This document shows, piece after piece, positions 44,644 to 49,704 of a stretch of 64,000 nt of DNA. Position 1 is the first letter of the stretch. The number at the start of each line of letters is the position of its first letter. The notes below the pieces were generated by a model that saw only the letters and a program-made list of their open reading frames with translations, was not told where the DNA came from and made no database searches. Both the position numbers and the translations under genes were made by a program. Location: assembly GCA_022824315.1 (NCBI GenBank), contig JAJEAC010000021.1, forward strand, positions 1 through 64,000. The letters are read 5' to 3'. This DNA is from Silicimonas sp. (lineage in GTDB: Bacteria; Pseudomonadota; Alphaproteobacteria; Rhodobacterales; Rhodobacteraceae).

Positions 44644-45429
44644 ATGACACGCTTCTTCCTGCACGACGGGCGACGGCTGGCATACAGCCAGATCGAAGGT
44701 GCAGGCCCGGGTGTCGTGTTTCTGGGCGGGTTCCGCTCGGACAAGGAGGGCACGAAGGCGCTCGACCTTGAACAATGGGCGCAAGACTCTGGCCGCGCCT
44801 TTCTCAGGTTCGACTATTCGGGTCACGGGGGCTCATCGGGTGACTTTCTTGAGGGCACGATTGGCGACTGGGCCGAAGACGCCGCGGCCATAGTCAACGT
44901 CCTTACCGAAGGGCCGCAGGTTCTTGTCGGGTCATCCATGGGCGGCTGGATTTCGCTTCTCTTGGCGCGCAGGATGCCCGAGAGGATCGCCGGTCTCGTC
45001 ATGATAGCCGCGGCTCCGGACTTCACGGAAGACGGGTATTGGACCGAGTTCGATGATGATCAGAAATCGACTCTTGAAGCCGAGGGCCAAATTGCACTGC
45101 CGTCCGACTACTCGGACGAGCCCTACATTATTACGAGGCGCCTGATCGAGGACGGGCGCCGCAACCTGGTGTTGCGTGACCCGCTTCCATTGCCGTTTCC
45201 AGTGAGGTTCCTGCAGGGCACCGCGGACGAGGCGGTCTCGACATCGGCCGCGCTTCGGCTGCTTGAACATGCTGACGGCCCTGACATGCGCCTGACGCTG
45301 GTCAAGGGCGCCGACCACCGGTTTTCCGATCCTACATGCCTTGCGCTCATTCGCGAGGCCGTCGAAGAGATGTTGCCACTTCGGTCGATTTGCTTCGAAG
45401 CGCATCTTCAAAGCCGGAGGAAGGAATAG
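44644..45429 (+). CDS. alpha/beta hydrolase (ABHD10-like)
   Basis: A 261-residue serine hydrolase. The nucleophile elbow is VLVGSSMGGWISLLLA (GxSxG), the oxyanion strand starts VVFLGGFRSDKEGTKA, and the likely His is in KGADHRF. LRFDYSGHGGSSGDF is typical of the ABHD10-type group. The substrate is unknown. No partner genes. Confidence 0.85.
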   Translation: MTRFFLHDGRRLAYSQIEGAGPGVVFLGGFRSDKEGTKALDLEQWAQDSGRAFLRFDYSGHGGSSGDFLEGTIGDWAEDAAAIVNVLTEGPQVLVGSSMGGWISLLLARRMPERIAGLVMIAAAPDFTEDGYWTEFDDDQKSTLEAEGQIALPSDYSDEPYIITRRLIEDGRRNLVLRDPLPLPFPVRFLQGTADEAVSTSAALRLLEHADGPDMRLTLVKGADHRFSDPTCLALIREAVEEMLPLRSICFEAHLQSRRKE

Positions 45430-45633
45430 GGAGTGTTGACTCCTGTCGATCCAGAGTTACAGGGAGATCTTGCTGCAAAGTCGATGTCATGTCGGAGGAG
45501 CAGCGAAGGTTTCAGGCCTAACCATCGACAAGTGAGGGAGCCCGTCGCGGTCCTGTTTGCGCGGGTGGTAGAGTTGGGTTTGGAAATTGGCAACCAACTT
45601 GAATTCGGCGTGAGTGAACGTCGGTAAGCACTG

Positions 45634-46002
45634 ATGATTAGGTGGATGCGTTACTTCGCAAATCCGGCGCACAAGGTTGAAACGACAGAGGCGGGACCGC
45701 CTGCCTGGCGGCCGGACAAGACGCCTTGCCCGGAAGGGATGACTCTCGATGAACGCGCTGAACTATTGCGGGATTCGATTGCCGAGCACCCGGAATCACC
45801 GACATCCAGACGTTTCGCGGTACGCCGCAACGGGTCGGGGCTTGCATTTTTTGCTGCTCAGATGACACGGATCGTGGACGGCGAGACGGAGTATCATGGT
45901 TATCCGACGGATTACGTCCCGGGCAAGATTCTGCGGCACTTCAGGGACAATGGGACCATTACACAGCCGGAATACAAAAAGTTGGTAAAGAGGCTTGGAT
46001 GA
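45634..46002 (+). CDS. small protein of unknown function paired with the IrrE-like gene
   Basis: A 122-residue protein I cannot place. It has a basic N-terminus, a central RRNGSGLAFFAAQMTRIVDG beta-like part, and a C-terminal segment (YHGYPTDYVPGKILRHFRDN, ITQPEYKKLVKRLG) of the type seen in small gene partners. Its stop overlaps the start of the following gene by four bases (ATGA), so the two are translated together. Base composition is lower in GC than around it. Confidence 0.65.
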   Translation: MIRWMRYFANPAHKVETTEAGPPAWRPDKTPCPEGMTLDERAELLRDSIAEHPESPTSRRFAVRRNGSGLAFFAAQMTRIVDGETEYHGYPTDYVPGKILRHFRDNGTITQPEYKKLVKRLG

Positions 46003-47489
46003 CGATGCTGATCGGAAACCGAAAGAGTCTTGCAGTCGGCCTCGAGCCATTGGAACCGTCTTGGGAACGCAGATTTCGTCCAGAGTGCGCTGCGTGGGCT
46101 AGGTTTTCATTGTGGATCGACGGAGAGAACATCTGCCGCAATCTCCTGGATGGATCGGATTCCGTGCGCGACGGCGTCAATGTACCGCTTGCACCGATTG
46201 CGGACTGGCTCGTGCGATCCTGGACATTTCTTGAATTTGAGGAACGTCCCAAGTGTTTTCCCTTACATTTTTCCGTTCGCGACACCATTAACCGCTGGGG
46301 TGATGCGCCAGCTCCCGACGAGCTCAGCGAAGACGACTGGTTCGACGCACGCGAACATTGGTGGTCGCGGCATTTTCTCTCGGCCGGGGCGGACGGAGCG
46401 TACTTGCCGAATCTATCCTTGATCCGGGGTGATGATCGGCTCTTCATGGAATGGGCGCCTACTGCGCTGGCTGGTTCATCAGCGCCTAGATTCCTCTCTG
46501 CAGAGGGTCGCCATGTCGTTGGCTGGACGGAAGGGGAAGAAATTCTTGCTCAATTTGTATCCTACGTTGCGCGTTGGCTCCGAGATAGCGAGGTCGCGGA
46601 TGCATACCCATGGGCTTGCCAGGAAGATCCGCTGCGTGAGGTAGGGCCGACGTTGTCTGAAAAATTGCAGGCGTACACCGGGATCGCTGCGGACGCCCTT
46701 CTTGAACGTACGGACTCCGACGACGACGCCGATTTGTGCGACAAGCTCGGACTGTCGGGGGGCGGAACGGATCCAGGTGGAAGCGTGGTCACTCAAGTGC
46801 TGCGAGACCTCCCGCCTGGGATTTCTGACACAGTATGGGAGCAAGTCTGGCGTCTTGGGGACGAAACTCGAACTGTTACAGGATTCGTTGAAGAACTGCG
46901 AAGCTTGGCGTTCGACGCTATGCGCCCCGCTTCTGGTCCCGAAACCTCCGGCTACCTCGCCGCGCGGGGCCTTCGAAGTCGCGTCGGTCTCAAAGGCCAG
47001 CCGATAGGTTTTGTAGAAGAGCAGTTGGAGGAGTTTGGGATCAGGCTAATCGATTCGGGTGCAGAGTGCACTCAAGAGCGTATGCTCGCCGGGTCGCGAC
47101 GAGGATGCGGTGCAGTCGCCATCATCAATCGCACTCCTCGAACCTCCACCCCATGGGGCAAGAGATTCGAGGCGATTCGAGCATTAGGCCACCTTCTCAT
47201 GGATCCGTATCGGGAAGACACACTTGGGGTCGCATCGACAGCATTCGCTCAACCTTGGGCGCGGCGCAGAGCTGGGGCTTTCACCGCGGAATTTCTTCTG
47301 CCCAGCGAAACACTGCAAGAGGAGGCCCATTCTTTAGATTCCTATGCCGAAACCGGGAGGTTCGAGTTTCTGCTTGATCGGTACGGGGTTGGGGCACGGA
47401 CCGCAGCCTATCACCTTTGGAACCATGGGTTCCTCTCAAGTGCCCGGATCCGAGATGACCTGATCGATCAGTTCTCAAGCGGACGATAA
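45999..47489 (+). CDS. protein with a degenerate C-terminal ImmA/IrrE-type metallopeptidase domain
   Basis: 496 residues. The last 170 look like ImmA/IrrE: GCGAVAIINRTPRTSTPWGK, the helix where HExxH is expected reads FEAIRALGHLLMDPY (first His and Glu are Arg/Ala), then FTAEFLLPSETLQEEA and a C-terminal RYGVGARTAAYHLWNHGF. The zinc site is thus broken and it is likely a non-enzymatic member. The N-terminal 300 residues (WARFSLWIDGENICRNLL, DDRLFMEWAPTALAG) form an unidentified domain. Four-base overlap with the preceding gene marks a two-gene unit; a defence or toxin-antitoxin role is only a guess. Confidence 0.7.
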   Translation: MTMLIGNRKSLAVGLEPLEPSWERRFRPECAAWARFSLWIDGENICRNLLDGSDSVRDGVNVPLAPIADWLVRSWTFLEFEERPKCFPLHFSVRDTINRWGDAPAPDELSEDDWFDAREHWWSRHFLSAGADGAYLPNLSLIRGDDRLFMEWAPTALAGSSAPRFLSAEGRHVVGWTEGEEILAQFVSYVARWLRDSEVADAYPWACQEDPLREVGPTLSEKLQAYTGIAADALLERTDSDDDADLCDKLGLSGGGTDPGGSVVTQVLRDLPPGISDTVWEQVWRLGDETRTVTGFVEELRSLAFDAMRPASGPETSGYLAARGLRSRVGLKGQPIGFVEEQLEEFGIRLIDSGAECTQERMLAGSRRGCGAVAIINRTPRTSTPWGKRFEAIRALGHLLMDPYREDTLGVASTAFAQPWARRRAGAFTAEFLLPSETLQEEAHSLDSYAETGRFEFLLDRYGVGARTAAYHLWNHGFLSSARIRDDLIDQFSSGR

Positions 47490-48259
47490 TGCCAGGAGAG
47501 ATGTCGAAGTTCATTTCGAATGGACGCCGTTGCGCGGCGACAGATCATTGCGCAACGGCTCGTGCAGGTCTTGCGTGGTCGCAAGCAATTGCGCTCTGCT
47601 GAGGAGAAGATCGAAGTTGTTCAATTCCCACGATGATGCGTGCAGGGAACTGCCCGCTCCAATTGCGCAAATGCGGGAGTCGAGTCCGCATTGATTGGTC
47701 TCGTTCTTGAGCGCATACCGAAGGAGCATCCGCAAGGTGCATTGCGCAGGAGAGCGACGATCATCGCAAATCCGGAACAGTTTCAGAATGCCTCGCATTG
47801 GAAGAACTTGCCAGGCACAATCAGTTTGGATCGCGGAAGACGTGACCTCGCAGGACTTGGTGTCGCGCTAGTTCGTGGAGGCAGGTGCCAGTCACACGTC
47901 GGGCGCGGGATGTGTCCTCAACGGGCAGGCATGAGACCGGCTCTGAGACTGACCAGCATTCGGCAATCGGTTGTGCACAGTGGTCGGGAAGCTGCAATTG
48001 GCGCTGGTCGACAGATCAACGAGACGGTCCCAGCCTTCGTGCAGGCCAAAGTTGCCGACGACAGCATTGGGACCTGCCGACATACCGGCGACATTTTCAA
48101 GACCGTGGGTCGAATGAAGGTGCATGGTCTCCTGATAGGACCGCTCGACAACTTCCGGGCGCACCGGTCTTTCGATCTGATGGGAAAGCTTGCACTTGCC
48201 GTCATTTCCGTCATCCACAAGGCGGCGGCAAGATCGCGGTACACGCCCTCAGTGCGTCC
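47490..48259. other. gene-free stretch between the IrrE-like unit and pccR
   Basis: About 770 bases. The only long readings (plus 47640-48278, minus 47511-47798 and 47892-48244) show no known family and overlap each other, so I treat them as non-coding or decayed. A 10-bp inverted repeat lies at its left edge. Confidence 0.45.
47526..47559. terminator. 10-bp perfect inverted repeat after the IrrE-like gene
   Basis: GCCGTTGCGC at 47526-47535 and GCGCAACGGC at 47550-47559 are exact complements with a 14-base loop, 37 bases beyond the stop codon. No T run follows; it could end transcription or mark an element edge. Confidence 0.5.
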
Positions 48260-49654
48260 CTATCCTGCCACCTCGTAGGGCAGTGTCTGACGCCGATTGT
48301 GGTTGATGATCAGTTCGCTCTCCAGCGGCGGAACCGAGCGTTGGTGGCAATTCCGGCGTTCGCAAATCCGGCAGGATATTCCGATCGGTTCGAAGTTCTC
48401 GACGTCAGAAAGATCGAGGCCTTCGGAATAGACGATTTCGCGCGCGTGACTGATCTCGCAGCCAAGCGCGATCGCGAAGCGGCGGACCGGCGCACGGAAC
48501 GCTGCCCCGGGCGCGGAGATTTCCCGGGCCAGGCAGAGATACCGGATTCCGTCCGGTGTCTCGGCAAGCTGTCTCAAGAACCGTCCTGGAGTCTCGAAGG
48601 CGCGATGCACGTTCCAGAGCGGGCAGGCGCCGCCATAACGCGCGAACTGAAGCGGAGTGGCGGAATGGCGCTTCGTGATCGTGCCAGCCTGATCGACCCG
48701 GACAAAGAAGAACGGCACGCCCTTGGCCCCCGGCCGCTGCAAGGTTGAAAGGCGGTGAGCGACCTGCTCGAGTGACGCTCCGAAACGCTGCGCGAGACGA
48801 TCGAGGTCGCAGCGCGTGTCGCGGGCAGCGGCCAGGAAAATCCGGTAGGGCATGAGCGCAGCACCGGCGAAATAGTTTGCCAACCCGATCTTGGCGATCT
48901 TGCGCGCCGTCTCGGTCTGGAACCGCGCCAGATCCAGCGTAGCCTCGATGAGATCGTCATGTGCCTCCAGCGCGATCTGGTGCAATGCTTGGAACCGCCG
49001 GGTTGAATCGGACGGCAGCGGCGAAAGCCAGAGTGTCCGCGTCTTCGGATCAAAGCGTCGGATTTCCTCGTTGTCCTCTGAGTCCCGGATCTGGATGCCA
49101 AGCTTCCTGCACGCCCTCTCCACGGCCTGGACCGCAGTTCCTGTCCCCGTGAATCGTTCCGCTGTCCGGTCGACAGCATCGATGTAGTTGTCGCAATAGT
49201 GGAAGAAGTCTCGAACCTCGTCCCAAGGCGACGCTCCGTGGCGAACGCCGTCCTGGCCGAGCGCCGCATCAAGCGAAGCGAGGCGCTCGTTTGCCTGGGC
49301 ATGAGCCCGGTGGAGCATGAGAAAGGCCCGGGCGACGAGCGGAGCATTCGATGCCACGAGCCGCAGGTCGGCTTGGGGTGGCACCGCTTCCCTGAACACC
49401 GGATCCGCTAGCGCCTCGCGCAGGTCGGCGACCATTCGTTCACCTTCGCCCAAGGCCAGTTCCCTGACGTCGAAGTCGAACTCCTTGACCAGCGACAGGA
49501 TCACGGACGAGGAAACTGGCCGATGGTTATTTTCCATCTGGTTGAGATAGGGAAGCGAAATGCCTAGCCTGTGGGCAAAGGCCTTCTGGGTCAATCCCAG
49601 CCTTGTGCGCGTTTCGCGGAGCTTTGCACCCGCGTATGGCTTCGAGGCGGACAT
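48260..49654 (-). CDS. pccR: propionyl-CoA regulator PccR (short-chain fatty acyl, ScfR family)
   Basis: A 464-residue regulator of the ScfR family (XRE-type HTH plus DUF2083 effector domain). The HTH is at residues about 8-60 (GAKLRETRTRLGLTQKAFAH, RLGISLPYLNQMENNHRPVS). The C-terminal part has the Cys motif CRICERRNC of the family. In Rhodobacter sphaeroides, PccR activates pccB from tandem TTTGCAAA-like sites; sites of that kind lie directly upstream of this gene and of pccB. The gene is near pccB but on the other strand. ATG at 49654 preferred over TTG at 49681, which falls in the operator. Confidence 0.9.
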   Translation of the reverse strand: MSASKPYAGAKLRETRTRLGLTQKAFAHRLGISLPYLNQMENNHRPVSSSVILSLVKEFDFDVRELALGEGERMVADLREALADPVFREAVPPQADLRLVASNAPLVARAFLMLHRAHAQANERLASLDAALGQDGVRHGASPWDEVRDFFHYCDNYIDAVDRTAERFTGTGTAVQAVERACRKLGIQIRDSEDNEEIRRFDPKTRTLWLSPLPSDSTRRFQALHQIALEAHDDLIEATLDLARFQTETARKIAKIGLANYFAGAALMPYRIFLAAARDTRCDLDRLAQRFGASLEQVAHRLSTLQRPGAKGVPFFFVRVDQAGTITKRHSATPLQFARYGGACPLWNVHRAFETPGRFLRQLAETPDGIRYLCLAREISAPGAAFRAPVRRFAIALGCEISHAREIVYSEGLDLSDVENFEPIGISCRICERRNCHQRSVPPLESELIINHNRRQTLPYEVAG

Positions 49655-49674
49655 GTCGGCAGCCCAGTTGAAAA

Positions 49675-49704
49675 TCTGCAAACATGGTTTCGCAAATTCG
49701 CAAA
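49675..49704. promoter_or_regulatory. PccR-type operator upstream of pccR
   Basis: Three TTTGCAAA-like octamers: TCTGCAAA at 49675-49682 and the direct pair TTCGCAAA at 49689-49696 and TTCGCAAA at 49697-49704, 8-base period. Same architecture as at pccB. It lies 21-50 bases from the pccR start and suggests autoregulation. Confidence 0.65.

Follow-up and report, generated by a model that had tools for sequence, protein, structure and literature searches.

A mobile two-gene cassette in Silicimonas sp. pairs a predicted CdiA-CT-like toxin with a putative antidote fused to an M78 domain

What function could be served by two overlapping genes of Silicimonas sp., one small and one large, when the large one ends in an ImmA/IrrE domain that has lost the HExxH motif of its active site? 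We addressed this question for the pair orfA-orfB in a stretch of 64,000 nucleotides (assembly GCA_022824315.1, contig JAJEAC010000021.1, positions 1 to 64,000), referred to here as the window. The features considered are as follows.

45634..46002, plus strand: orfA, predicted CdiA-CT-like toxin, 122 aa; the true start is probably 45646 (118 aa), because relatives begin at MRYF
45892..45903, plus strand: YHGY of the HGYP motif (orfA H88, G89), the most conserved motif, with a candidate catalytic His
45999..47489, plus strand: orfB, predicted antidote, a CdiI-like domain and an M78 domain fused, 496 aa
45999..46628, plus strand: orfB residues 1-210, CdiI-like immunity domain, from the Foldseek/VIA fold match and hhalign
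46926..47486, plus strand: orfB residues 310-496, ImmA/IrrE (M78) domain, from Pfam and a fold match
47178..47192, plus strand: RALGH replacing HExxH in orfB, from an alignment of family members
45374..48227, no strand assigned: accessory insertion carrying orfA-orfB, from the empty site in congeners; edges approximate

Both reading frames were confirmed, as was the ATGA overlap in which the genes share 4 bases, and the description of a two-gene unit with four-base coupling given in an earlier note on this DNA therefore stands. That note also placed the pair in a low-GC pocket flanked by 770 bases of non-coding DNA, which is correct in part. The dip in GC exists but is mild (57-58% compared with ~62%), with lower kilobases elsewhere in the window, and the 770 bases lie downstream, whereas only ~200 non-coding bases lie upstream. 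The pair is single copy, with no second one in the genome.

The pair lies within ~2.85 kb (45374-48227) that is absent from 7 of 7 other genomes of the genus. The flanks of this insertion, a hydrolase gene on the left and scfR on the right, adjoin each other in all seven congeners, where the flanking blocks are ~15-85 bp apart in six and ~360 bp apart in one, and the insertion alters how the hydrolase reading frame ends. The orfA-orfB pair was not found in these congeners, whose matches were to the M78 part only, and neither a transposase nor a target duplication was recognised at the insertion edges. One congener, G1112 (L069), carries a different ~360-bp sequence at the junction and has 48003-48228 in common with the window, indicating that the junction has changed more than once. 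The scfR-type regulator (48260-49681, minus strand) also has an M78 domain, together with HTH and ScfRs C-terminal domains; since scfR also occurs where the site is empty, its M78 domain seems to be a positional coincidence.

The closest relatives of the pair are in two Defluviicoccus MAGs, one gammaproteobacterial MAG and one spirochaete MAG. DNA similarity to the Defluviicoccus and gammaproteobacterial copies is 74-77% and extends from at or just before orfA to the end of orfB, while the spirochaete copy is similar over part of the cassette only. Because the DNA similarity is confined to orfA and orfB, the pair moves as one cassette. Together with the empty site, this supports the view that orfA-orfB is a mobile accessory cassette, as the earlier note had proposed, and not a unit held in a fixed housekeeping context in all relatives. 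Plasmids, phages and viral contigs searched with the window protein gave no match, nor did phages searched with a type-B relative.

To find relatives more widely, we searched sampled genomes and, in a single scan, ~85,000 species genomes. This yielded 48 relatives, mostly on MAG contigs, in eight phyla: Pseudomonadota, Spirochaetota, Planctomycetota, Acidobacteriota, Actinomycetota, Myxococcota, Rhodothermota and Thermodesulfobacteriota. In 46 of the 48, the large gene is directly preceded by an orfA homologue, which is broken or incomplete in a few of them; most of these pairs overlap by 4 bases or 1 base or are separated by only a few bases. With the same partner adjoining in so many relatives, the pairing of orfA and orfB cannot be put down to chance. 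A further set of more distant relatives, found on plasmids and chromosomes, again has a small gene followed by a large one. The overlapping genes, their mobility and their sporadic occurrence across eight phyla fit the layout of a type II toxin-antitoxin system, and co-transcription is predicted. On an Allorhizobium plasmid (L039:5723-10446) the pair is followed by two further small-plus-large overlapping hypothetical gene pairs, which are perhaps a tandem of similar modules, and the orfA profile also detected a small-plus-large pair that is more divergent and keeps HELAH intact (L137:1303-3231).

Searches of orfA against Pfam, NCBIfam, PADLOC and PHROGs gave no match beyond a sub-threshold SHOCT at its C-terminus, and no HTH match was found. 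In a genome search, the orfA family profile matched the extreme C-termini of a 4110-aa ORF (E 5.5e-15) and a 2452-aa ORF (E 3.4e-13), both of CdiA type, the longer of which has a PT-VENN pre-toxin domain. The AlphaFold model of orfA (mean pLDDT 83) matched 5T87, a CdiA toxin from Cupriavidus taiwanensis, with Z 7.0 over 72 of 74 residues, the next row reaching 3.5. A Z of 7 for a predicted model is not decisive by itself; 5T87 was also the sole PDB sequence match of the family profile, a weak one (E 0.2). H88 and G89 are invariant in 40 members, and orfA, CdiA-CT toxins and 5T87-like toxins have R60 and the HG of HGYP in common, H13 nearly always being shared as well. Taking the profile matches and the model together, we place orfA with the CdiA C-terminal toxins and predict that it is toxic. 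Weak fold matches to CdiA-CT EC3006, BrnT, RelE and HigB2 (Z 2.1-2.9) suggest a RelE/BECR-type RNase fold, and RNase activity would be in keeping with this. The gene is under purifying selection, with dN/dS of 0.07-0.16 against its closest relatives. We considered whether the 5T87 type is the same pair and rejected this, as searches with the 5T87 sequence lead to Rhs-type toxins whose immunity protein, of ~107 aa, is a different one; the 5T87 type is thus a cousin of the orfA toxin.

The N-terminal part of orfB had been described as a large unknown domain, and Pfam gave no match over its first 300 residues. This description no longer holds, as the domain is recognisably CdiI-like. The gene directly after the 4110- and 2452-aa CdiA toxins, their CdiI, aligned with it in hhalign at 90.4% (E 1.4e-6, with a CdiI profile built from three sequences), compared with 0.1% for unrelated controls. 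Residues 3-190 matched CdiI of Burkholderia dolosa (5FFP) with a Foldseek probability of 1.00, and VIA gave Z 9.7 over 142 of 155 residues, with Whirly and PUR folds at ~6. 5FFP was not retrieved by PDB sequence searches, whether with the N-terminal profile or with CdiI sequences, and the link to this structure therefore rests on fold. One CdiA-CT/CdiI pair has the same ATGA overlap as orfA-orfB. By these homologies, orfA and orfB are related to the two genes of a CDI toxin-immunity pair, whose order they also share. In E. coli genomes the CdiA-CT/CdiI pair has no close copy, and a Duffyella plasmid (L140:2956-3450) has an orphan CdiI homologue beside which no toxin could be recognised.

The likeness to CDI pairs (5T87, 5FFP) thus covers the toxin and immunity domains, their order, their overlap or adjacency and the candidate active-site residues. 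In CDI, however, the toxin is part of a large exported CdiA and the immunity protein is not fused to an M78 domain, whereas orfA has only 118-122 aa and no carrier, and orfB carries the fusion. Since both genes are homologous to a CdiA-CT/CdiI pair, and stand-alone polymorphic-toxin cassettes are on record (PMC3482391), the locus might instead be an orphan cassette of this kind, a spare module kept in reserve to recombine into an exported CDI or Rhs protein, and not an intracellular toxin-antitoxin system. We consider this unlikely: the window contains no ORF of at least 1000 aa that could be the CdiA carrier, the M78 fusion and the pairing are kept in eight phyla, Actinomycetota and Planctomycetota among them, and plasmid and chromosomal sites vary. 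CDI-like toxin-antidote pairs outside large exoproteins, as here, have been described as CRCT/CRCA modules in Rickettsia and others, with one type modelled on 5T87 (PMC9111745). The antidotes in that description have ~140 aa and are not said to carry an M78 fusion, in contrast to the 496 aa of the M78-fused orfB.

The C-terminal part of orfB matched Pfam Peptidase_M78 over residues 386-472 (E 1.1e-5, above the curated cut-off). By fold, residues 305-496 matched CapP (Z 12.6) and IrrE (Z 9.8), and in a viral structure library the high-probability rows were IrrE-type matches only. In the alignment, R394-A-L-G-H398 occupies the HE[LF]xH position, and the Glu that is the third ligand is replaced by Arg, so that both the ImmA/IrrE assignment and the RALGH reading were upheld. 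The earlier note took the enzyme part to be dead, which is borne out for the window clade but not for the system. The window copy has R-[AG]-L-G-H with Arg, as do the three nearest relatives in the alignment, L076, L078 and L079 (RGLGH), and the altered motif is common to relatives down to 57% identity; HE[LF]xH and the third Glu are kept in 39 of 43 aligned members. As most relatives keep HExxH, the dead active site is a trait of a clade and not of the system. The plasmid-type set also has a dead active site, and in a quick tree a single branch (support 92) lies between all members with a dead site and all those with an intact one. By this quick method, HExxH need not have been lost separately in the window clade and in the plasmid-type clade. 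The M78 part has dN/dS of 0.12-0.13 against the two closest intact ORFs, values that are approximate with dS near 1 or above, and within the window clade its constraint equals that of the rest of orfB. Judged by its sequence, the M78 domain of this clade is dead as a protease but is not decaying.

An ImmA/M78 antitoxin beside a variable small toxin is also the arrangement of RosmerTA (RmrT/RmrA; PMC10440598), and PADLOC RmrA models match orfB residues 319-486 (E 2.4e-7). The RosmerTA antitoxin typically has an intact HExxH and often an N-terminal HTH, whereas the window clade has RALGH, and orfB has no HTH in a Pfam scan and a CdiI-like domain instead. With HTH and HExxH missing, we rejected a direct RosmerTA assignment. 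COG2856-Xre pairs and fusions (PMC2701414), ImmA, IrrE and CapP likewise have the M78 domain and the mobile two-gene layout, but their Xre-type HTH was not found in orfA-orfB, where the M78 protein has a CdiA-CT-like partner. M78 proteins usually act on an adjoining repressor (PMC2701414), and a second alternative is accordingly a regulatory pair like ImmA-ImmR or IrrE-DdrO, in which orfA would act as a small regulator and the M78 protein would bind or cleave it, with no toxin involved. The weak SHOCT match is in favour of such a role. Given that orfA has no HTH match and is homologous to CdiA toxin C-termini, that the protease is dead in the window copy and that the CdiI-like domain would be left without a role, we regard this alternative as quite improbable.

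Sequence and model comparisons together make orfA-orfB a relative of CDI toxin-immunity pairs that stands alone and has its immunity protein fused to an M78 domain. It belongs in neither CDI nor RosmerTA, lacking the exported carrier that defines the former and the HTH and HExxH typical of the latter. The statement that this is no recognised system holds in part: both genes relate to the CdiA-CT/CdiI pair, but we found no description of a CdiI-M78 fusion in the literature, which was incompletely covered. Current annotation misses the module, as beyond the M78 match there is no specific Pfam, NCBIfam, PADLOC or PHROGs family.

Loci in which one gene is broken or missing are unevenly divided between the two genes. 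The toxin gene is lost or not intact in six, with orfB open (in one with an internal in-frame deletion), and orfB is truncated or frameshifted in two, both of which retain the whole N-terminal domain. In one of these two loci the HGYP of the toxin has changed to HGCP, and two further loci have both genes broken. Three rows of this integrity count are scripting artefacts: L076, through a stop that lies upstream of the start, L100, through a spurious second hit, and L084, through too short a search range. In these small numbers, mostly from MAGs, the pattern fits an antidote function of the orfB N-terminal domain. In Cupriavidus pampae (L113:7390-8501) the large gene is cut to ~222 aa, leaving the immunity-like domain alone, and the toxin gene is intact. 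That the window copy is itself a decaying remnant without function, its protease dead because the module is being lost, is very improbable, for although the active site is lost, the pair is single copy in the genome and several relatives are broken, both ORFs are complete, the altered motif recurs in relatives down to 57% identity, and orfA, orfB and the M78 part all have dN/dS values well below 1.

We propose that the cassette is most likely a toxin-antitoxin module. The specific reading, to which we assign a probability of about 0.75, is a mobile two-gene toxin-antidote cassette with orfA as the toxin, residues 1-210 of orfB as the antidote and the M78 domain in a regulatory role. In this model, the CdiI-like domain would bind the toxin and neutralise it, and the gene overlap would couple antidote production to toxin production. 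We speculate that in most relatives the M78 domain, by its appearance an intact metallopeptidase, could gate the toxin by cleaving either the antidote or some other protein. In the window clade, with catalysis lost yet the domain conserved, it is most likely a structural, sensing or binding domain.

The earlier note had suggested a mobile defence or toxin-antitoxin module and a survey of neighbourhoods for defence islands. The 46 of 48 pairings and the CDI homology favour the toxin-antitoxin side. Some relatives do adjoin phosphorothioation, DISARM-like, DndC-like or TmtA genes. Of 20 large neighbours scanned one at a time, however, 15 gave no defence-model match, and the association with defence islands is only modest. 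A role of the cassette in phage defence is possible.

More tentatively, the family may be a widespread unnamed class of toxin-antitoxin, perhaps defence, systems in which a CDI-type immunity domain is joined to a metallopeptidase of ImmA type whose proteolytic activity gates the toxin, with one lineage having swapped gating for a dead sensing domain. The module occurs in at least eight phyla yet has been overlooked by annotation, and it joins two fields that are usually separate, delivered CDI pairs on the one hand and intracellular ImmA-type toxin-antitoxin and phage-defence systems on the other. As one architecture occurs naturally with either an intact or a dead M78 domain, the role of the ImmA domain in antitoxins becomes directly testable.
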